A stretch of DNA of 21,244 nt from a virus, in the IMG/VR virus record IMGVR_UViG_3300034406_000038, positions 1 to 21,244 of that record. One strand, 5' to 3'. The notes below the pieces were generated by a model, which saw only the letters and a program-made list of their open reading frames with translations, made no database searches and was not told where the DNA came from. Below are positions 1 through 15,360 of the stretch, in pieces. The translations under genes and the position numbers were made by a program. How positions within the stretch are numbered: the first letter of the stretch is position 1; every line of letters begins with the position of its first letter.

Positions 1-130
1 GATAGAGAGTCCATCCCCACTCACGCGATGAGAGGAGGTCCTCCACGAGAGCGCGGATCGCGTCCCGATCGGAAACCTCCTCCGGGAGCGCCGCCGTGGT
101 GAGTGGCGGAGCATCATCCACCTCACCGAT
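1..130 (-). repeat. Left copy of a 130-bp direct repeat (right copy is 336-465)
   Basis: This copy is cut by the left edge of the window. It encodes the main part of the left-most gene in the same reading frame as the right copy, with Asp in place of Glu at one codon (GEVDD against GEVED). Near identity at the DNA level shows that the duplication is recent or kept alike by recombination. Confidence 0.95.
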
Positions 131-172
131 GGCCTTCGCCGCGATGTCGGCGAGTAGTTCAGCCTTCGTCAT
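1..172 (-). CDS. Small protein sharing the o-spanin C-terminal module (partial)
   Basis: The start at 172 has GGAGGGGGG five bases upstream. The first 15 residues (MTKAELLADIAAKAI) are unique to this gene and resemble small cytoplasmic phage proteins. From residue 16 on (GEVDDAPPLTTAALPEEVSD, then RDAIRALVEDLLSSREWGWT) it is nearly identical to the end of the o-spanin. The gene runs off the left edge after 57 codons, so its end is not seen. It has no signal peptide, which suggests the shared module works in the cytoplasm here, while in the o-spanin it would sit in the periplasm. Function is unknown. Confidence 0.6.
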   Translation of the reverse strand, partial: MTKAELLADIAAKAIGEVDDAPPLTTAALPEEVSDRDAIRALVEDLLSSREWGWTLY

Positions 173-284
173 GTCGGCCCCCCTCCGAAGCTATCGCGAT
201 CGCGGATTTACAGATCGCGTGTTCCACCTTTTTCCGAAACGCCGAGTCCGCCGCTCCGATGTTCCACTGTTCAAGGTATCCCAT
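159..284 (-). CDS. 41-residue small protein
   Basis: The ATG at 284 lies inside the last codons of the o-spanin gene in another frame, with GGAGG six bases upstream. The product is MGYLEQWNIGAADSAFRKK followed by VEHAICKSAIAIASEGGRH and DEG. The helix pattern 'FRKKVehAIckSAiaIasE' resembles the start of a family of small phage proteins whose members are usually longer, so this copy may be shortened. Its end overlaps the start of the left-most gene by 14 bases. The good ribosome site and the fit between its two neighbours support expression. Confidence 0.5.
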   Translation of the reverse strand: MGYLEQWNIGAADSAFRKKVEHAICKSAIAIASEGGRHDEG

Positions 285-702
285 CCGTTTCCTCCCTGAG
301 GCGTTCGAGCGCCTCTCTCGTGTTCATGAGTTTGTGATAGAGAGTCCATCCCCACTCACGCGATGAGAGGAGGTCCTCCACGAGAGCGCGGATCGCGTCC
401 CGATCGGAAACCTCCTCCGGGAGCGCCGCCGTGGTGAGTGGCGGAGCATCCTCCACCTCACCGATCTCCAGGGGGACCGGCTGAGGGATCGGTTTCTCGA
501 TCACGCGCTCGGGACAATTCATCTCCGCCGCTCGCCGGTTGAGGTCCTCACACGTGGACGAACAACCGATTCCGAGGAGGAGAGCGAAAACACACCACAG
601 GAGGCGCGTCCTGGACGCCTCTCTCCATCCGTGACGGGGGGGAGGAGGGTAGGACCTCCGGACCCTCCGCGCCGTCTGAGGGGATTCTGAGGCGTTTCTC
701 AT
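271..702 (-). CDS. Outer-membrane lipoprotein spanin (Rz1-like), mosaic gene
   Basis: The protein has 143 residues and starts in an ATGA overlap with the i-spanin gene. A hydrophobic stretch WCVFALLLGIGCSS (residues 36-49) ends in a lipobox-like site with Cys47 as the expected lipidated residue. A Pro-rich segment (VIEKPIPQPVPLEIGEV) follows, as in o-spanins. Residues 1-35 are an unusual Arg- and Pro-rich leader, long for a lipoprotein signal, encoded by repeat copy A. The C-terminal part (DAPPLTTAALPEEVSDRDAI, then REWGWTLYHKLM) is encoded by a segment nearly identical to the gene at the left edge. Only the middle looks like a normal o-spanin. The leader may be partly removed or unused; an alternative start inside the gene is not visible. 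Confidence 0.72.
   Translation of the reverse strand: MRNASESPQTARRVRRSYPPPPRHGWREASRTRLLWCVFALLLGIGCSSTCEDLNRRAAEMNCPERVIEKPIPQPVPLEIGEVEDAPPLTTAALPEEVSDRDAIRALVEDLLSSREWGWTLYHKLMNTREALERLREETDGIP
336..465 (-). repeat. Right copy of a 130-bp direct repeat (left copy is 1-130)
   Basis: It is 129 of 130 bases identical to 1-130 by direct reading; the only difference is 451 (C) against 116 (A). The copies are 335 bases apart. This one encodes part of the o-spanin C-terminus (GEVEDAPPLTTAALPEEVSD and on to WGWTL). The identity stops abruptly after 465 on the right; on the left the repeat may continue past the window edge, so the full length is unknown. Confidence 0.95.
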
Positions 703-704
703 GG
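598..704 (-). repeat. Copy A of a ~107-bp direct repeat (copy B is 13020-13125)
   Basis: This copy forms the first ~35 codons of the o-spanin gene. It is the same length as copy B apart from one extra base and differs from it at two adjacent positions, both in the loop of a stem (GGAGGGT at 644-650 with ACCCTCC at 662-668, plus strand). An imperfect stem (GAGGC..GTC with GACGCCTC around 601-620) lies in its other half. In this copy the reading frame MRNASESPQTARRVRRSYPP continues open into the lipoprotein; in copy B one base is lost and the frame closes. Confidence 0.92.
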
Positions 705-1127
705 ATCACCTTCCTCCTCGATCGCGGCAAGGTCACGGATAACCGCGATCGCCTCTCCGAGCGCCTTCGGACATTCCTCCGAACGGATCACCCTGGAGAC
801 CTCCCGGATCCGGTCACGATAGCGGATCACCACCTCCGGCGGTTTCGAGTTCGCCTCATCGAGGTCGGACTGAACCTCCTCCAGGAGGCGAGCGTTCTCA
901 TCGAGGGTCCGCCGAACATCCGTGAGGATCTCGTTCCGGATCCGGATCCTCTCCTCGAATCCCTGAGCCTGTTCGAGGAGAGCGTCCTCCATGTGTGCCG
1001 TCCCGAGTTGATATCCAATCCACGCCGCGATTCCGAGAGGGACCGCGAACAGGACGAACGCCGCTCCGACTCTGAACACCGATTTCCACGGGATCAGTTT
1101 CTCAATCCCTAGAATCGCTCCCCACAT
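699..1127 (-). CDS. Inner-membrane spanin (Rz-like)
   Basis: This 142-residue protein spans the periplasm from the inner membrane in the last step of lysis. The start at 1127 has AGAGGGGGA close upstream. A longer in-frame start at 1241 adds an Arg/Ser-rich extension without its own site and is rejected. One membrane segment lies at residues 17-41 (VFRVGAAFVLFAVPLGIAAW). A long periplasmic coiled coil follows (ALLEQAQGFEERIRIRNEIL, then RLLEEVQSDLDEANSKPPEV), and then the phrase VVIRYRDRIREVSRVIRSEE, typical of i-spanins. This layout and the overlapping lipoprotein gene downstream (ATGA) identify a two-component spanin system and imply a Gram-negative host. Confidence 0.82.
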   Translation of the reverse strand: MWGAILGIEKLIPWKSVFRVGAAFVLFAVPLGIAAWIGYQLGTAHMEDALLEQAQGFEERIRIRNEILTDVRRTLDENARLLEEVQSDLDEANSKPPEVVIRYRDRIREVSRVIRSEECPKALGEAIAVIRDLAAIEEEGDP

Positions 1128-1359
1128 GATTCCCCCTCTCCCGCCGTCTCCGGCGGCGTTCCACCGTGATCCCATCGAGCGCGAGTTCCGCCGAGTGACG
1201 AATGACGCTTCCCGGTCTCGATCGGGAGAGGCGGTGGACATTCCAGTCCAGGAGGTTCATGAGCGCCTCATCGCTGAGGACGCGGACGAACTCTGAGAAA
1301 AACCACCGCCGCCGATCGTCCGGATCAGGGTGTCTCTCGTGATAATGCGATCCCTTCAA
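1102..1359 (-). CDS. Small basic protein of unknown function
   Basis: The proposed start is the TTG at 1359, which overlaps the endolysin stop (TTGA), a junction type used elsewhere in this window; a GTG at 1368 is the alternative. The protein has 85 residues: MKGSHYHERHPDPDDRRRWF, then a helix FSEFVRVLSDEALMNLLDW, and a basic C-terminus that ends GNHVGSDSRD. The 3' end overlaps the i-spanin start by 26 bases, so the i-spanin ribosome site lies inside it. It fills what would be a 230-base gap between the endolysin and i-spanin genes and has codon use like its neighbours, so I keep it. No family is recognised. Confidence 0.45.
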   Translation of the reverse strand: MKGSHYHERHPDPDDRRRWFFSEFVRVLSDEALMNLLDWNVHRLSRSRPGSVIRHSAELALDGITVERRRRRRERGNHVGSDSRD

Positions 1360-3044: not shown

Positions 3045-4244
3045 CTACACTCCCGGCGGGAGTAGATACCACGGGACCTCCTGACAGAAACTCACATCCA
3101 CGGTCGGATAGATGGAACTCAAATCGTGTTTGTTCCGGATGTGACGGCGGGAGGTGTTTCCCGTGGCGGTGTCCACCTCCTCGATCGTGAGAACGATCTC
3201 ATCCCTCCGAGGCGCGGCGCGCTCGATCCACATTTGAACAAGTTCAATGTGATGGAAAATCATCGCCTCCGAGAGGGACCACCACTGAGCATCAAAAATC
3301 TGATCCGTGAGATCCGCCGCCGCTTGTGACTGTTCGAACTGATAGTTCGTCGCGGGATCACACCCGGAGTTTTTGATGAGATTGTGACGGAGCGGATAGA
3401 CCGGCGGTCGGTCATACCACACTTGCGTAAACGTCTGTCTCACAAAAAACATCTCCAGAAACGAGACATAGAGAAACTGCGCCCACACGATCACAAAGTA
3501 TTTCCATCGTCTCGGACGGAAATGGAGGCGATAGGTTCCGCGAGGATTCAGATAGAGGAGTTCCTCGCCGCCGTCCCCCGGTTCGAACGCGAGGATGTTT
3601 CCATCATCGTCCGTCACGAAATAGCGGTTCAGTCCCTCCCTCAGATCGAACGGATCGAACAGGGAGTTATCGGGGAGTTCGAGCGCGATGGATCCCCTCA
3701 CGTCCGGAATGATCATCGCGACCGGATCCATGAGACGCGTCCCGCCGATCTCGTTCAGTGTCGGGAGGCGCGTCCACTCGAACGGGTCCACCGCGATATC
3801 CTGGATCTCCTGATAGTTCAGTTCGCGGACAATCCGACCGGCGGACCGGTCTAGCTCGGGATCTTCCGGCGCGGTGTCGATCGTCATATCCCCCTCGATG
3901 AGCGGCGGAAAATCCTCCTGGATCCGATCGACGTGATAGGCGTTCAGGAGGAACCCGTCCGCACCGGTCCACTCATAGCGGTCCGTGAGATCGATCCACA
4001 TGTGAGAGGGGAGTCCGGCGGTCCACTTCCGGACCTCGCGATCATCGGTGTCCATCATCATCGCGTTCTGTTCGGCGGTGTTCCGGCGCGCTCCATAGTC
4101 GAACACGCTCTCCTCGAAAATCCGCCCGTTCACCCACCACACGCGGTCCAGTCCAGGGTAGGGACCTCCGCCCACCAAACCCGTCACCTCTCCCGGTTGG
4201 AGCGAGAACTCGGTCCCGCCGTCAAACAGTTGAGCGTATATCAA
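3045..4244 (-). CDS. 399-residue protein of unknown function, probably tail associated
   Basis: The start is TTG in a TTGA overlap with the membrane protein gene (MIYAQLFDGGTEFSLQPGEV). There is no signal peptide. The protein is acidic in the middle (EDPELDRSAGRIVRELNYQE) and strikingly aromatic in residues 235-285 (RWKYFVIVWAQFLYVSFLEM then FFVRQTFTQVWYDRPPVYPL). That stretch is probably a buried helix pair and not a membrane anchor, since charged residues surround it. A helix QWWSLSEAMIFHHIELVQMW comes later. Two cysteines lie in the C-terminal third. Nothing here matches a family I know. Its position between tail-tip genes and lysis genes suggests a late virion protein, such as a fibre or tip accessory protein. 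Confidence 0.55.
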   Translation of the reverse strand: MIYAQLFDGGTEFSLQPGEVTGLVGGGPYPGLDRVWWVNGRIFEESVFDYGARRNTAEQNAMMMDTDDREVRKWTAGLPSHMWIDLTDRYEWTGADGFLLNAYHVDRIQEDFPPLIEGDMTIDTAPEDPELDRSAGRIVRELNYQEIQDIAVDPFEWTRLPTLNEIGGTRLMDPVAMIIPDVRGSIALELPDNSLFDPFDLREGLNRYFVTDDDGNILAFEPGDGGEELLYLNPRGTYRLHFRPRRWKYFVIVWAQFLYVSFLEMFFVRQTFTQVWYDRPPVYPLRHNLIKNSGCDPATNYQFEQSQAAADLTDQIFDAQWWSLSEAMIFHHIELVQMWIERAAPRRDEIVLTIEEVDTATGNTSRRHIRNKHDLSSIYPTVDVSFCQEVPWYLLPPGV

Positions 4245-4475: not shown

Positions 4476-6152
4476 TCAGGGTTCGATGAGTTCCAATTCG
4501 GTCGCCTCGAACTCGGTGAGTCCCTCCGCGCTCGCTCGGAACCGCTTCGTGAACCCGTCGAGAATCCACGGATCGGACTCGGTCTCCTGTTCGAGGATCA
4601 GTTCATTCCCCACGGTTTTCCATTGGACGGTGGGAAGGGTGACTTTCTGTCCGCGCTCGATCCCCGTGAGGGGAGCGTTCACCACCACACGCGCTCTCAT
4701 CTTTGGTTCCCGCGTCTTGACGAATTGACGGTTCGCGATCTCCTCCGCAACCTCCTGTGCCGTCCCGTCCTCATATCCCACGGCGGGGATATCGAACGCA
4801 ACGGTTTCCCCGTAGACATCCCCCGGACCGTCCGGGTCCTCCGGCGCGAGGACATCCACCTCGATCACGCCGTCATCATCCCGCCCGGTCCGGACCTTGA
4901 TTCTCGATTCTCGGGTCGGACCGCCGAACGTGATCGCCGCCGGTTCCGCCGGAGCGGACTCATCCGCGCCGATGATCGCGGTGGCGGTGTATTCGTAACT
5001 CGCGCCGTTCAGGAGATCCTCATCGGTCACGGTCGCATGACCCTCCTCCTCACCGCCTCCCGCGTTGTCCACCGTGGCGATCACCGTCCATCCGTCATCC
5101 GTGGGTTCCGAGGTGTCCCCCGGTTCCTCCTCGCCGATCGAGATCGGCGGCGGGAGAGGAGATCGCGGTGTTCCCGAGAGGTCCGTGATCACAGGGGAGA
5201 GGACGATCACACGCGGCGGACTCCGAGGCGGTTCATCGAGCCATCGATCATAGGGATCCGGCGAGGATCCCCGCGAGGGTTCATCCGTGATCCGCCTGAA
5301 TATCCGATACCGCTCCGGCGGGAGGAACTGATAGGACATCTCCGCGCCGCCGCCGCGAACCTCGATCCGGACCGTGGCATCGGAGACGGTCGCCTCGATC
5401 GTGGGAGGGTGGATCTCGACCGGAAGACGATATCTGAAATCATCTTTCCGTTTGACGATCGGACCCTCCTCCTCCGCCGGACCCGGTCGGAGGCGGTTGT
5501 GGATGGTTCGATAGGTGATGAATTTATCGATCTCCTCGATCGTGATCTCCGTGGTCACAATCATCGGGTCCACCCATTTCGCGATCTGAGGTGTCCCCGG
5601 TTGTTCCACGATGGACGCCTCATCGATCGCCTCTCTCCAGGAGCGCGCCGAGTCCACGATGAGACGCGCCGGACCGATGGGATACTGATCCCGCGCCTCC
5701 AGTTTTTCACCGGTCGCGGGATTGATCGTCTGTCGTTCTTGATGAGTGTTATAGATCGCATATCCCGAGAGGATCCTGAGCGAGGAGAGTTCGCCTTTCC
5801 CCGGTTGGAGCGAGGTGAACGGGAGGAACTCCGCCTTCTCCGTCTCCAGGAGGATCAGGTTCCGCCCGGTGTTCACCTCGGGGAGATAGGCGCGACCGTG
5901 GACGGTTTTCGAATATGAGACCGGCGCGGATCCGGGGAACGCGTATTCCCATTCCTCCGCCACGCGATCGATGATCCGCCCATACCACGAGACCGCCGTC
6001 CGGATTTTCTCGATGAGCGTCTCCTCGCCGGTCCTCGGGTCCACATGGAATCCACACTCCACGATGATCGCGTCCTGAGCCTGTGTATACGCGTATGGTT
6101 GCGGGAGACTCGGGATCCTGTGTTGTGTGTATTTCGTGGGATTCAGACTCAC
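4476..6152 (-). CDS. Baseplate hub-like protein, C-terminal half with inserted FN3-like region
   Basis: The protein has 558 residues and starts at GTG in a GTGA overlap, with GAGG five bases before (VSLNPTKYTQHRIPSLPQP). A long reading that starts further upstream overlaps the previous gene and is rejected. Residues 1-225 are mixed helix and strand. Residues 250-410 look like a fibronectin III domain (TIEATVSDATVRIEVRGGG, then LLNGASYEYTATAIIGADES) split by a Pro/Asp/Glu/Ser-rich insert at about 290-355. Residues 464-558 resemble the last barrel of hub proteins: AQEVAEEIANRQFVKTREP, then RARVVVNAPLTGIERGQKVT. Together with the previous gene it probably forms the tail hub. The domain calls are by eye. 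Confidence 0.6.
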   Translation of the reverse strand: MSLNPTKYTQHRIPSLPQPYAYTQAQDAIIVECGFHVDPRTGEETLIEKIRTAVSWYGRIIDRVAEEWEYAFPGSAPVSYSKTVHGRAYLPEVNTGRNLILLETEKAEFLPFTSLQPGKGELSSLRILSGYAIYNTHQERQTINPATGEKLEARDQYPIGPARLIVDSARSWREAIDEASIVEQPGTPQIAKWVDPMIVTTEITIEEIDKFITYRTIHNRLRPGPAEEEGPIVKRKDDFRYRLPVEIHPPTIEATVSDATVRIEVRGGGAEMSYQFLPPERYRIFRRITDEPSRGSSPDPYDRWLDEPPRSPPRVIVLSPVITDLSGTPRSPLPPPISIGEEEPGDTSEPTDDGWTVIATVDNAGGGEEEGHATVTDEDLLNGASYEYTATAIIGADESAPAEPAAITFGGPTRESRIKVRTGRDDDGVIEVDVLAPEDPDGPGDVYGETVAFDIPAVGYEDGTAQEVAEEIANRQFVKTREPKMRARVVVNAPLTGIERGQKVTLPTVQWKTVGNELILEQETESDPWILDGFTKRFRASAEGLTEFEATELELIEP

Positions 6153-6943
6153 GAGAACCTCACGATCACGCGCCGGACCCGGCGCGTCTGGATGGGAACC
6201 GCGTCGATCGAGCGGATCGCTTTGGTTCCGATGTTCAGGGTCCTCCCGACCGGATAGCGAGGCGACTCGGGATCGAGCATGAGGAGGGAGTTCCACGATC
6301 GGCGGAACCACATCTCCACCGCCCACGGAGACGCGAGTTCACGGATCGCCTCCCAATACGATTGATCCGGCGGGATCACCACCGAGCGGACATCCGCGTC
6401 CGGGAACCGGAGTTCGACATTGATCCCGGCGGCGTTCGCGAGGCGGCGGATCACGCCGTGGATCGTCCGGCAATGAGACCACACGCGATATCTCCCGACC
6501 GGTCCCGAATAGCGTTCGATCGCCTCTAGGACGCCGCTCTCCCTGAGGATCGTCTGTCCATCCACCTCATCCCATGTCCAACCGCCTCCGGGGATCGCGA
6601 TGATCGTATCGGTCGGACGCCGCCTCTGAGCGATCCACACGCGGTCATAACCCATCACCGTGATCGCGGGGATCTTTCCGCGCTCCACCACCACCGTCCG
6701 CCGCTCCCGGTCCGGGGGGACCGTCCCGCCTCGGATCTCCACCTCCGCTCTCGGATTCTCCGGATCGTTCGAGGAGAATAGATCCCATGACGCGCCGGTC
6801 CGGTAGGACTCCACCGCGTTCCATCCGGCGAACGTCGCGGTGAACTGTTTGTACACCGCGCCGCGAGGCTGACGGATCTCCAGATCGGTGATCCACGGAG
6901 TCACGTCCGATCCGTTCATGTAGACCGTCGAGAATGTCCTCAT
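6149..6943 (-). CDS. Baseplate hub-like protein, N-terminal half (gp27/gpD-like)
   Basis: The protein has 264 residues. It opens MRTFSTVYMNGSDVTPWITD followed by LEIRQPRGAVYKQFTATFAG, as in hub proteins whose first barrel starts with 'xxNGxDVTxxI'. The middle contains an expected hub strand (KIPAITVMGYDRVW). A helical domain follows: HGVIRRLANAAGINVELRF, then VVIPPDQSYWEAIRELASPW and AVEMWFRRSWNSLLMLDP. This is the pattern of the gp27 / late control D family, where 'aGi...w..i..la.......w' precedes the next barrel. It ends soon after, and the next gene appears to supply the rest. The role would be the central hub at the tail tip. Confidence 0.6.
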   Translation of the reverse strand: MRTFSTVYMNGSDVTPWITDLEIRQPRGAVYKQFTATFAGWNAVESYRTGASWDLFSSNDPENPRAEVEIRGGTVPPDRERRTVVVERGKIPAITVMGYDRVWIAQRRRPTDTIIAIPGGGWTWDEVDGQTILRESGVLEAIERYSGPVGRYRVWSHCRTIHGVIRRLANAAGINVELRFPDADVRSVVIPPDQSYWEAIRELASPWAVEMWFRRSWNSLLMLDPESPRYPVGRTLNIGTKAIRSIDAVPIQTRRVRRVIVRFS

Positions 6944-10558: not shown

Positions 10559-11578
10559 TCAGATCGACAGACCGCGAGCGCGGAGGTTCCCCATGCGACA
10601 TGGGTCCTCCGGTTGAGCGGCGCTCGGGACCGGAATTCGGATCCAGAAAAACTCATGATCGGCGGCGTCGATATCACCGAGAACGAGATCATCGGTGGAA
10701 TACGTTCCGGGGGATCCCGTCACGTCCGGCGCTAGCTCGGTCCATGTGTAGCTATCGCGGACCTCCAAGGTGATCGATGAGGAGGTGGGATCGGAGGTGG
10801 TGTTCGGGAGGATAATCCCCATTCCGGGGAGTTCGTCGGAAATGTATTCCGTAACTCCATCCTCATAGACGGTCTCCCCGTCCATCTGAGCATCCTCAAC
10901 ACATTTCACCGCGTCCACGAGAACATCACATGTGTATTTCCCGGTCGCGCCGTCAAGTTTGAAATCCGCGAACGTGATCACGACGGACCCTTTCGCGGCG
11001 AGCTTGTGTTTCGTGGGATCGGAGTGAGGGAGGATCGCCTCGATAAACTCCTCCGCGCCGGTCCCGTCGAACCACCATCCGGGGAGGGAGTAGATCGTCA
11101 CCGCCTCCGCCGTCTCGGACCCGACGTTCCGACATGCGACGCGACGTTCCGAGGAGGTGAGTCCCGCTTGAATCACCTCAAACTCTAGGATCTCGGTCGG
11201 GAGTTTGGTTCCGTCATCGAGATAGTTTCCGATCGTGACCCGAGCGGTCCATCCGGTGTCCACGCTCGAATCGACCACGATCCCGAGACCGGGGATGATA
11301 TCGAAATTCTCGGTGGAATCATCCGCCGTAACACCCAGACCGGTCCGGTCCCCCCACGGATTCCGGGAGGTCGCTCCGGTCCCCTCGCCGGTAACGTCCA
11401 CGGTGACGCCTCCGGACTTCGTGAACTCCAGGAGATAGGTCCCCGCGACCGCTTGACCATTCCCCCGCCACGCGATCGAGACAATCGGTGTGTTGGTCGT
11501 GTTCTCGAACCGAACGTCCAGGTCCCCCACGGGATCCGTCGCCTCATCCGCATAACGGAGCATGAGTTCGGCGCTCAT
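10559..11578 (-). CDS. Tail-tip beta protein, second of two tandem paralogues
   Basis: The protein has 339 residues, starting MSAELMLRYADEATDPVG after AGAGGGGA and in an ATGA overlap. Blocks shared with the previous gene include NGQAVAGTYLLEF, GGVTVDVT, GLGVTADD, PGLGIVVDSSV, LPGWWFDGTGAEEF, KLAAKGSVVITF, SDPTSSSITLEV, DSYTWTELA and the ending MGNLRARGLSI. The mid-region shows a run of strand-turn-strand elements and no catalytic motif. Four cysteines are present in this copy and one or two in its paralogue. The pair probably arose by tandem duplication and diverged, perhaps to give different subunits of one tip structure. A longer in-frame start at 11650 is unlikely. Confidence 0.65.
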   Translation of the reverse strand: MSAELMLRYADEATDPVGDLDVRFENTTNTPIVSIAWRGNGQAVAGTYLLEFTKSGGVTVDVTGEGTGATSRNPWGDRTGLGVTADDSTENFDIIPGLGIVVDSSVDTGWTARVTIGNYLDDGTKLPTEILEFEVIQAGLTSSERRVACRNVGSETAEAVTIYSLPGWWFDGTGAEEFIEAILPHSDPTKHKLAAKGSVVITFADFKLDGATGKYTCDVLVDAVKCVEDAQMDGETVYEDGVTEYISDELPGMGIILPNTTSDPTSSSITLEVRDSYTWTELAPDVTGSPGTYSTDDLVLGDIDAADHEFFWIRIPVPSAAQPEDPCRMGNLRARGLSI

Positions 11579-12606
11579 ATCGATTCCCCTCTCACCCTCA
11601 GATTCCGGAGGCGGAGATTTCCGAGCGACGCGGAATCCGGCGGACTCCACCGACTCCAGAACGGGACCTCCCCCGATGAGGTGATGATTCCTGTTCCCTC
11701 GCCGCTCTCGGTGAGGGTGATTCCGTCCGTGGTCCAGGTTTCTCCAGGAGCGCCGCCGCCGTCCTGAGCTAGCTCATTCCACTCGAAAGAATCACCGTCC
11801 ACGATGAGCGTATGAGTCTCCGAGGTGGGATCCGAGGACTGATTTTGAAACACGATCGAGAGACCTCGGAGGCGATCGTTCCCGTCCACGTATCCGTTCC
11901 CCGCTCCATACTGATAGCGCGTGGTTCCGTCGAAAATCGCGGAGGCGATCGCGAGACCGCCGTTCACGTAGACATCCGCCGTTTTCGACGGTCCATCCCA
12001 ATTCTGATAGGTGATGGTGTACGTTCCCGAGTTCGCGAGTTTCTCCCTGGAGGGTGAGGTGTGATTGTCGATCTGCAAGATGAACGTCCGCGCTCCGGCG
12101 GGAGTGAAATAGAAACCGGGGAGAGCGATCGCCACACACTCCGCTCCATCCCTGGACCCGATGTTCACCGCCGCTATCTCGATCTCACTCGGGTCCTCCA
12201 CGCCGCTCTCCACGATCCCCGAGTTCAACATTCGAGTAACGGACCCGCCGCCGTCCATGTATGCACCGAGCGAGACCCGAGATTGATTCCCGTCCGCGAC
12301 GGTGGAGGCGACCACGATTCCCACTCCGAGGATGATTCCATAGTTCACGGTGACATCATCGGCGGTCACACTCAGGCCGGTCGCGTGGTTCGGATTTTTC
12401 GATCCGTCCTGAGCGACCACGTCCACCGTCACTCCGCCGTTCACGTTGAACGTGAGGGTGTAGGATCCGCCGATCCCTTGACCGTTGTCCAAGTGAGTCG
12501 CGGAGGCGATCGGCGATCCGGTGAGGTTCTCGAAACGGAACGAGAGGTTCCCAATCGCCGAACCGGACGCGGCGGGATATCGGAGTTCGATGTCAGCGGA
12601 ACTCAT
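11575..12606 (-). CDS. Tail-tip beta protein, first of two tandem paralogues
   Basis: The protein has 343 residues, starting MSSADIELRYPAASG at an ATGA overlap with the previous gene. It is rich in strands and Gly/Asp/Ser turns, as in tail fibre or tail-tip Ig-like proteins. Aligned by eye with the next gene, it shares NGQGIGGSYTLTF, GGVTVDVV, GLSVTADD, LGVGIVV, LPGFYF, SDPTSETHTL, DSFEWNELA and the C-terminal ending LGNLRLRNLRVRGESI. No enzyme motif is visible. It may form part of the tip complex or bind the host surface; that is inference from position and composition. A start 12 codons further upstream is possible but would overlap the neighbour more deeply. Confidence 0.65.
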   Translation of the reverse strand: MSSADIELRYPAASGSAIGNLSFRFENLTGSPIASATHLDNGQGIGGSYTLTFNVNGGVTVDVVAQDGSKNPNHATGLSVTADDVTVNYGIILGVGIVVASTVADGNQSRVSLGAYMDGGGSVTRMLNSGIVESGVEDPSEIEIAAVNIGSRDGAECVAIALPGFYFTPAGARTFILQIDNHTSPSREKLANSGTYTITYQNWDGPSKTADVYVNGGLAIASAIFDGTTRYQYGAGNGYVDGNDRLRGLSIVFQNQSSDPTSETHTLIVDGDSFEWNELAQDGGGAPGETWTTDGITLTESGEGTGIITSSGEVPFWSRWSPPDSASLGNLRLRNLRVRGESI

Positions 12607-13010
12607 GTCAACCTCAGGAGACGCGCCTCGAAACTCCACCACCGGATCCCGGACGGCGCGCCGTTTGTGTAATGCCCGATCACAGGATCGAGCGTGAAAT
12701 CGGAGGTGAACAGGACCTCATATTCCGTCGCGTCTCCGGCGGTCGGTTTGAGTGTTGCGGGACCCGTTCCGTTCAGGAGATCCCGGACGGTGGAGGCGAT
12801 CGCCTCCGTGAGGACCTCGGACCGGATCCGGATCTCCCGTTCGTCCGTGTCCTGGAGATACTCCACGCCGATCGAGGACCCGGTGATCGACCGCGTGTCC
12901 GCTCGCTCGGGTCCCTGATCCTGAAATCGGTTCATGATCCGGACGTTTTTCGCGAACACCGCTTTCACCGCCCCGCGCTCGATTCCAACCTCATCCAGGG
13001 TGAAACTCAA
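12603..13010 (-). CDS. Small tail-tip region protein, function unknown
   Basis: The protein has 135 residues. No ATG is available at the 5' end; the likely start is TTG at 13010, with GGAGGT about five bases upstream and a TTGA overlap with the short leader ORF. The N-terminus is MSFTLDEVGIERGAVKAVFA. A helix REIRIRSEVLTEAIASTVRD and a strand-rich C-terminus (ATEYEVLFTSDFTLD, then GIRWWSFEARLLRLT) follow. There is no signal peptide or membrane segment. Its place straight after the tape measure suggests a distal tail or tail-tip component, like the small genes after lambda H, but I see no family match. The stop overlaps the next start (ATGA). Confidence 0.6.
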   Translation of the reverse strand: MSFTLDEVGIERGAVKAVFAKNVRIMNRFQDQGPERADTRSITGSSIGVEYLQDTDEREIRIRSEVLTEAIASTVRDLLNGTGPATLKPTAGDATEYEVLFTSDFTLDPVIGHYTNGAPSGIRWWSFEARLLRLT

Positions 13011-13123
13011 ATTGACCTCCAGGAGGCGCGTCCTGGACGCCTCTCTCCATCCGTGACGGGGGGGAGGAGGGTAAAACCTCCGGACCCTCCGCGCCGTCTG
13101 AGGGGATTCTGAGCGTTTCTCAT
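13007..13123 (-). CDS. Possible 38-residue coupled leader ORF inside repeat copy B
   Basis: It opens with ATG in an ATGA overlap with the tape measure stop and ends in TGA overlapping the TTG start of the next gene (TTGA). The peptide begins MRNAQNPLRRRGGSGG and ends GRASWRSI; it is basic and resembles nothing I know. Because it fits exactly between two coupled junctions, ribosomes could read through it to reach the next gene. It could equally be a decayed remnant: the homologous frame in copy A is a longer coding sequence, and the one-base loss in this copy breaks that frame. Confidence 0.35.
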   Translation of the reverse strand: MRNAQNPLRRRGGSGGFTLLPPVTDGERRPGRASWRSI

Positions 13124-13125
13124 GG
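13020..13125 (-). repeat. Copy B of a ~107-bp direct repeat (copy A is 598-704)
   Basis: This segment lies between the tape measure gene and the next tail gene. It matches 598-704 over its whole length except for two adjacent substitutions (13073-13074, AA here against GG in copy A, plus strand) and one missing base near the start of the minus-strand reading (AACGCTCAG here, AACGCCTCAG in copy A). Both copies begin at an ATGA overlap with the stop of the preceding gene. A stem GGAGGGT / ACCCTCC with an 11-nt loop (13066-13072 with 13084-13090) is intact in both, and both substitutions fall in the loop. A second imperfect stem lies in the part near 13028-13040. Confidence 0.9.
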
Positions 13126-15360
13126 GTAGGTGTATCCCCCGGTATCCGGAACGAGACCCGCCTCCTCCATCTGTCTCCGGAGTTCCTCCATGTCCAGGAC
13201 CGGAATCACTTTCACTTTCGCCGGAGTCGCCTCGATCGTCATCATCGCTTCCTGAGTTTTCACGAGGAACTCATCCGCCGCCGCTCCGAATCCGCCTTTC
13301 AAACGTCCTGTGGTGTGATCGATCGCGTTTCCCATCCGCTCAACGATGATCACGCCGGTTTTCTCCGCCTCCGCTCCGATTCCCTTCACCGCCTCCGCTG
13401 TTTCTTTCGCGGCGGTGGTGGTGTCCTGAACCGGTTTGAGGAGTTCTTTCGCGGCGGTGATCAACCGGTCCGCCTCCGCTTTGTTTTGTTGAATCGATGA
13501 CCCGAGTCCGGAATAGGCTTTGTCCACGAGACCGAGCGCCGTCTCCGCCGCTTTCCGCGTGGCCGGATCGAGGAACGTGAGAGCGGTGATCACCTCTAGC
13601 CAATCACCGAGTTTCCCGATGATGGACTGAATCGAGGCAATCACGTCAGCCGACATCCTCCGGAACGCCGCCGCCGAGAGCAGACCGAACGCCTTGATGT
13701 ATTTCCCCGCTCCCTCCTGGATGTCCTGAGCGATCTGGACCACCGTCTCCCGGAACCCGGTCCAGTCCCCCGCCATGAGTTGAATCGCACCCTTGACGAT
13801 TCCGAGGATCACATCCATCGCGGTCCCGATGAAGATTTTCGCTCCCTCCCACGCGACTTTGATGAACGCGAGGATCCGAGGTCCCGCGACCTCCCACAGA
13901 CGAACGAGTTTCGCAACCTCGCGACTCACGATTTCGCGGACGTAAGGCCACACCTCCTCAGCCGTGGTCCTCACCTTGCGCCACTGTTCGATCACAAACG
14001 TGGAAACCTCCTCGAACGCCGGACGGAGGAAATCGATCGCGGCGCGGAGCGCCTTTTCGATCAGGTTCCAATTCCCGATGATGAGCGCCGCTCCCGCCGC
14101 GATCCCCGCCGCCCACGCTGCGACGGACCCGGTGATCGCGGTGACCGCCGCGACGATTCCTCCGGCGAGGAGGAGGATCGGTCCGAGCGCCGCCGCGAAC
14201 GCGAGGATCGCGATCACGGATCGCTGAACCTGTTCGGGGAGGTTCGCGAATAGATTCACCATCCCGGTGAGCGCCGTTGCAAACTCGGACACGAGAGGGA
14301 CCACGATCGGGATGAGCGCCTCGCCGAGTTCGATCGCCGCGACGGAGAGCGCCGCCATCATCCGCCCGAACTCCCGTGCCGCTCCCTCGGTGTCATCGAA
14401 CGCCTTTTTCAGGGATTGTCCGAACTCATCCGAGAGCGCCTTGAATATCGCGACCGCGCTTTCACCGTTGTCACGTGTGAGGAGGAGGATCGCGTTGAAC
14501 GCCTCCACGGACTCGAACGCCTTTTTCAGAGCCTCCGTGTTGTCCCCCGCTTTGGTCCGGAGTTCCACGAGAGCCGCGAGGAGTCCGCGCTCCTGGAGGG
14601 TTTTGGTGACCTCACCGACCGAGGACCCGATCTCCGCGAGACCATCGTGAACCGCTTTCGTCGGACCGAGGAGTTTTGCAAATATCTGTCTCAGTCCGGT
14701 CACCGCCTCCGCCGCCGTCGCGCCGGTCCGCGTGATCGTGGCGACCGCCGCCGCGAGGTCCGCGAACGGGACCTCCAGTTCGGACGCGATCCCGAGGACG
14801 CCGGAGAGCGCGGATCCATAGGTGTCCGCCGCCGCTTTCCCCTCCCGCGCCGCCGCCGTGAGGATCCCGACCGCCTTTGCAGCGGAGAGATTTCCCTCTC
14901 CATACGCGGTCACGGCGGAGGTCACCACATCCCCGACCTCCGCGACCGACCCGAGACCGGCGGCGCTCGCTTGCGCGGAGGCGGTGAGGATGTCCATTGC
15001 CGCCGCTCCCCGGAATCCGGCGGAGGTGATTTTCTCCAATCCCTGAGCGAGTTCCACGGGGGACTGTCCAACATCCACCGCGAGCGCCTTGAGATCATCG
15101 CTCCATCCCGCTACCACCTCACGCTGAATCCCCACGAGACCCACGATTCGATTGGTCGCCTCCTCGAAATCCGCCGCCATCTTAACCGCCGCCGTCCCGA
15201 CCGCGAGGATCGGAACGGTGAGCGATTGTGATAGCTGTCTCCCGGTCCGCTCCGCTTGCGCGGAGAACCGGCGGAGACGGCGGTTCGTGTTCTGGAGACC
15301 CTTGACGAACTCTTTTGCATGGAGTCCGAGGAGGACATCGAGTCTCGCGATCGTTGCCAT
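13120..15360 (-). CDS. Tape measure protein
   Basis: This 746-residue protein fixes tail length and is injected with the DNA. It starts at an ATG right after the previous stop, with GGTGG upstream. Residues 60-320 form the conserved tape measure core (PF10145 / TIGR01760): DFEEATNRIVGLVGIQREVV, then VGQSPVELAQGLEKITSAGF and YGSALSGVLGIASELEVPFA. Residues 383-430 are strongly hydrophobic (AILAFAAALGPILLLAGGIV and on), as in tape measures that reach the inner membrane. Long helices with Ala, Glu and Lys follow to the C-terminus. At roughly 1.5 angstrom per residue the tail would be about 110 nm long; this is a rule-of-thumb estimate. The stop overlaps the start of the repeat copy at 13020-13125. 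Confidence 0.95.
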   Translation of the reverse strand: MATIARLDVLLGLHAKEFVKGLQNTNRRLRRFSAQAERTGRQLSQSLTVPILAVGTAAVKMAADFEEATNRIVGLVGIQREVVAGWSDDLKALAVDVGQSPVELAQGLEKITSAGFRGAAAMDILTASAQASAAGLGSVAEVGDVVTSAVTAYGEGNLSAAKAVGILTAAAREGKAAADTYGSALSGVLGIASELEVPFADLAAAVATITRTGATAAEAVTGLRQIFAKLLGPTKAVHDGLAEIGSSVGEVTKTLQERGLLAALVELRTKAGDNTEALKKAFESVEAFNAILLLTRDNGESAVAIFKALSDEFGQSLKKAFDDTEGAAREFGRMMAALSVAAIELGEALIPIVVPLVSEFATALTGMVNLFANLPEQVQRSVIAILAFAAALGPILLLAGGIVAAVTAITGSVAAWAAGIAAGAALIIGNWNLIEKALRAAIDFLRPAFEEVSTFVIEQWRKVRTTAEEVWPYVREIVSREVAKLVRLWEVAGPRILAFIKVAWEGAKIFIGTAMDVILGIVKGAIQLMAGDWTGFRETVVQIAQDIQEGAGKYIKAFGLLSAAAFRRMSADVIASIQSIIGKLGDWLEVITALTFLDPATRKAAETALGLVDKAYSGLGSSIQQNKAEADRLITAAKELLKPVQDTTTAAKETAEAVKGIGAEAEKTGVIIVERMGNAIDHTTGRLKGGFGAAADEFLVKTQEAMMTIEATPAKVKVIPVLDMEELRRQMEEAGLVPDTGGYTYP

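Follow-up and report, generated by a model that had tools for sequence, protein, structure and literature searches.

Mobile elements of small size are known from mycobacteriophages. These elements (MPMEs) are several hundred base pairs long, have inverted ends, and carry coding sequence. The palindrome elements related to IS200/IS605 insert beside a fixed short sequence, and do so without a target duplication. Among named phage repeats that stand at gene starts, the closest to the repeat described here are the Start-Associated Sequences (SAS) of cluster K mycobacteriophages (PMC3203893). A genome of these phages has many SAS and ESAS; they precede the start codons of genes, and related phages conserve them (PMC3203893). 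The literature on phage mini mobile elements or on duplication driven by microhomology yielded nothing usable.

The window considered here comprises 21,244 bases and is the whole of an IMG/VR virus record, which is a linear fragment. Two of its segments, 598-704 (copy A) and 13020-13125 (copy B), are identical in 104 of 107 alignment columns (97.2%; self-BLAST E 2.5e-46). Genes of the region run on the minus strand, and the alignment is read on that strand, 704 to 598 against 13125 to 13020. The copies differ by one adjacent CC/TT double substitution and by a gap of 1 nt, where a base is missing in copy B. This is far beyond chance. An earlier note on this DNA had described just such a near-identical pair of 107 bp, with two adjacent substitutions and one indel, and both the alignment and the self-BLAST confirm it. 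The CC/TT pair (minus strand, 652-653 and 13074-13075) belongs to the changes that are linked with UV damage; one instance, of course, proves nothing.

In a small comparison, dispersed repeats such as this one proved uncommon. No repeat of at least 60 bp and 85% identity with its copies more than 1 kb apart was found in 934 kb from 71 other phage loci. The same scan gave three hits in total, all local, with copies no more than 546 bp apart. The window repeat itself is present twice in the record, without a third copy in the 21,244 bases. No further copy was found in the phage and plasmid collections, or in the records of seven relatives. Exact scans with 18-22-mers of IMG/VR, and with 22-mers of GTDB genomes, also found none; such scans could miss diverged copies, and all of these collections may lack near relatives of the record.

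The first copy lies among genes that resemble those for spanins:

598-704, minus strand: repeat copy A, placed by alignment over the first 35 codons, with the start codon, of the putative o-spanin gene; non-coding-like in all frames.
271-702, minus strand: putative o-spanin gene of 143 codons (702 to 271), an ORF with a weak Rz-like profile match (E 0.35) that follows an i-spanin-like gene.
699-1241, minus strand: putative i-spanin gene, an ORF with a weak Rz-like profile match (E 0.016) that overlaps the o-spanin start as ATGA.

The identical stretch of copy A opens where the putative i-spanin stop overlaps the o-spanin start (ATGA, 702-699), and the o-spanin ATG (702) directly follows GGAGGAAGG, an SD. 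Translated in the o-spanin frame, the repeat reads MRNASESPQTARRVRRSYPPPPRHGWREASRTRLL; a lipobox-like LLWCVFALLLGIGC (LLLGIGC in the gene) begins at its end. The spanin assignment is putative. It is weak by profile, and fits the gene pair, the upstream endolysin, and the lipobox-like motif. Among the traits of an o-spanin, a lipoprotein partner of the outer membrane encoded beside an i-spanin, the gene pair and the motif are present, and the profile matches are weak. The true start of the putative i-spanin may lie near 1124. Relatives of the spanin region, which would show the state of site A, were not found in any search, including tblastn against phages. Downstream, a 41-codon ORF (159-284, minus strand) lies between the o-spanin gene and the ORF that runs from 172 to 2, and one frame of 173-270 is coding-like in composition.

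Copy A is unlike the gene that contains it. Coding character was scored from codons, with training on the other genes of the record, and for each slice of those genes the gene it came from was withheld from the training. In the o-spanin frame, copy A scores -7.6. The 345 in-frame slices of other genes average 6.4 with a minimum of -5.2, so that none (0/345) is as low as copy A; random DNA of like composition averages -6.9. The repeat is non-coding in character in all six frames, and the remainder of the o-spanin ORF is coding-like. Copy A thus looks like non-coding DNA within a gene, either an N-terminal stretch that evolves freely or a recent arrival. It is unlike old coding sequence, and may itself have come by insertion from a third place; it may also be recent.

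The second copy lies between two genes for tail proteins:

13020-13125, minus strand: repeat copy B, placed by alignment at the junction of the tape-measure gene with the tail gene that follows it; this junction is tight in the relatives L074 and L075.
13120-15360, minus strand: tape-measure gene, by PHROG and Pfam matches; its C-terminus ends as in L074.
12603-13010, minus strand: tail gene downstream of copy B, with a TTG start at 13010, the codon at which the L074 and L075 homologues start.
13007-13123, minus strand: a predicted ORF of 38 codons, read by translation from the ATG of copy B (13123 to 13007), whose stop overlaps the tail TTG as TTGA.

The tape-measure stop (TGA, 13122-13120) and the tail TTG are separated by a gap of 109 nt. 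The TTG is preceded at five bases by GGAGG, and ten bases, GAGGTCAATT, separate it from the repeat. The ATG of copy B stands 113 nt ahead of the TTG, and is out of frame with it. With the length of copy A, this distance would be 114 nt, in frame, and the tail protein would have an N-terminal extension.

The earlier note had both copies beginning exactly at ATGA, each at the 5' end of a gene that has no ATG of its own at that point. ATGA is indeed present in both; the identity opens two bases earlier, at CCATGA, and finishes in both copies at CTCCTG. At copy A, the ATG of the repeat (702) is the start codon of the putative o-spanin gene. At copy B it serves no such role, as the tail gene starts just outside the repeat. 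By frame and by homology, copy B is not the start of the tail gene. The possibility that the tail protein carries the repeat as a fusion was accordingly rejected, as the frame differs and the homologues start downstream of the repeat.

The relatives that allow this comparison came from an alignment of two adjacent paralogues, 11575-12606 and 10559-11569, which retrieved L074 and L075 from IMG/VR. In both relatives the tape measure, the tail gene and the paralogue follow in the order seen in the window. The paralogous proteins (10559-11569 and 11575-12606) are 42% identical to each other and have relatives in L074 and L075. The family is present as two genes in tandem in L075, and as one gene plus the start of another in L074. 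The second paralogue of the window found no match in 50,697 phage records; nor did the large genes at 3045-4244 (399 codons) and 4476-6326 (up to 616 codons), at E 0.01, in the same number of records. Other routes gave less. Scans with single proteins (tail gene, o-spanin, capsid) found no relative, alignments of the capsid and the tape measure found distant relatives only, and tblastn of the o-spanin, i-spanin, tail and other genes against phages gave no match.

At the site of copy B, the relatives are empty. The tape measure of L074 ends 3 nt ahead of the tail gene ATG, and in L075 the two genes overlap by 4 nt (ATGA), as GCCATGAGC, against the 109 nt of the window; both relatives are distant. 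In ten other relatives of the tape measure, the space that follows the gene is about -4 to +24 nt. The tail proteins of L074 and L075 are 27 and 29% identical to that of the window, and start exactly at the codon that corresponds to TTG 13010. On the other side, the tape measure ends as GLVPDTGGYTYP in the window and as GLEPETTGSGL in L074, similar to the end, and the comparison of the two C-termini scores 47 against a best of 29.5 in 500 shuffles. These tight junctions, the starts of the tail homologues, and the end of the tape measure show, by sequence comparison, that copy B is a lineage-specific insertion that leaves both neighbouring proteins essentially whole.

How might such an insertion have arisen? 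The preferred reading is that copy B is a recent ectopic micro-duplication of about 100 bp, made by template switching or another form of illegitimate recombination and joined at microhomology. The probability of this is put at about 0.6. Here, about 100 bp would have been copied into a tight junction of tape measure and tail gene, with either the start of the o-spanin gene (its 5' end) or the same unseen source that supplied copy A as the donor. Both donors are putative, given the non-coding character of copy A, and its codon score below all of the gene slices counts against the reading. The two copies that differ at only three positions count for the micro-duplication, as does a further duplication that touches the o-spanin gene (below).

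The left join would likely lie at the CCATG(AG) that ATGA gene junctions have in common, a microhomology of 5-7 bp. The minus strand of the record has only 7 CCATG sites. The possible joins are CCATG or CCATGAG on the left and at most TG on the right, with the ancestral junction known only from distant relatives. Two forms of that junction fit. It may have been CCATGAGTTTCACC, much as in L075, in which case the insert is about 109 bases flanked by TGAG. It may instead have been CCATGGAGGTCAATTTGAG, in which case nothing but the repeat was inserted, with its joins at CCATG and TG, and both the TTGA overlap and the ribosome-binding site are native. The latter explains the well-placed GGAGG more simply. 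The ten bases GAGGTCAATT are native under one of these readings and unexplained under the other.

The insertion would have been tolerated if, as appears, the tape-measure stop, the GGAGG ribosome-binding site and the TTG start stay functional. With one base missing, the frame of the copy B ATG ends at TTGA, and the insert puts no N-terminal extension on the tail protein. The deletion may have followed the insertion and been favoured on this account. The duplication as a whole is real and recent, and probably neutral.

Other histories must, of course, be weighed. Chance recombination might have copied A and B separately from a third, non-coding place, either a part of the phage beyond the record or the host. 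Such a source would account for a repeat that is non-coding in all frames, and the record, as a linear fragment, leaves room for it. It requires, however, two events that share the same left boundary. Further, charged residues and leucines lie within the repeat just ahead of the core of the o-spanin signal peptide, as if native to A. This origin is unlikely, while retaining some weight. The record could also mislead, with one real copy multiplied in assembly, and its end does fall inside another repeat. An artefact would nevertheless have to produce a double substitution and a deletion between the copies, and to do so where the genes flanking copy B on both sides follow the order of the relatives; it is hard to credit.

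The earlier note had offered two further possibilities, a small mobile or recombination element and a shared translation-start cassette. The first holds in part, in that the tight junctions of L074 and L075 show an inserted copy at B. A small non-autonomous element, about 100 bp long, that an enzyme from elsewhere placed at two ATGA junctions in independent events, in the manner of the IS200/IS605-related palindrome elements, would explain the CCATGAG that precedes both copies, the empty site B in relatives, and a copy A that looks non-coding, as though it too had been inserted. The word "mobile" fares less well. There are two copies only and none in the databases searched. No terminal inverted repeats were found at either copy or in the flanks, and no target duplication is common to both sites; TGAG stands on both sides of copy B under one alignment only, and is absent as a flank at A. 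The fold z-scores are only -1.0 to -1.8, and excision of A at CCATGAG would shift the o-spanin out of frame. Such an element is judged unlikely. A narrower form is quite improbable. In this form a non-coding unit, about 100 bp long, would have CCATGA start-stop junctions as its specific site of insertion, would enter operons without breaking genes, and would depend for its movement on machinery of the phage or host that acts in trans. The sequence common to both ATGA junctions is best read as short homology for a copying switch, rather than as the target of an element. As for the cassette, two copies on the same strand, each at a gene junction, fit a regulatory or translation-start sequence kept by selection at two genes. 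But the tail gene starts beyond the repeat and outside its frame, no promoter or terminator was found around copy B, the repeat matches no RNA family, and it is absent from the junctions of L074 and L075. This makes a cassette a very remote prospect. A known RNA or ribozyme was rejected separately, as no Rfam covariance model matched at its gathering score and the other matches were at chance level, and unusual RNA structure was rejected on the fold z-scores.

The record contains a second duplication:

1-130, minus strand: the copy at the end of the record, in the ORF from 172 to 2; 129/130 identical (99.2%) to 336-465.
336-465, minus strand: the copy in the 3' part of the putative o-spanin gene; 129/130 identical to 1-130.

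This duplication, which the earlier note does not describe here, is longer than the first and, as the record ends within it, the extent seen is a minimum. Duplications thus touch both ends of the o-spanin gene, the repeat copy its 5' end and 336-465 its 3' end. That the second duplication hits the same gene makes recurrent ectopic copying plausible in this lineage. Spanin genes are known to change architecture through duplication and deletion (PMC6139136), and for part of an o-spanin gene to be duplicated is therefore not out of character.

If the micro-duplication is correctly read, the window gives a clear snapshot of how a stray duplication can slip into a tightly packed phage operon and destroy none of its genes. 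The stop and the start remain usable, and through a one-base deletion the tail protein does not take up the insert. Were the repeat mobile and aimed at ATGA junctions, it would reveal a new means by which elements persist in compact genomes; for this the evidence is thin.

How, then, does the locus compare with known systems? Diversity-generating retroelements also place two near-identical repeats of about 100 bp, template and variable, in one phage genome. This class was rejected, as the changes are not adenine-directed and no target gene has the copy at its 3' end; the window genes searched gave no reverse transcriptase. The repeat resembles an MPME in being a small insertion that is present in one phage and absent in its relatives, but has neither the inverted ends nor the coding sequence. 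Like SAS and ESAS it is a repeated sequence at phage gene starts; it differs in having two long copies that include and follow the ATG, and in being absent at the L074 and L075 junction. The window repeat differs from ectopic micro-duplications, made by template switching or illegitimate recombination, in that its donor is only putative and copy A is not like old coding sequence. It shares with them the lack of transposon hallmarks, a likely short homology at the left join, and a short, near-identical segment at a distance.
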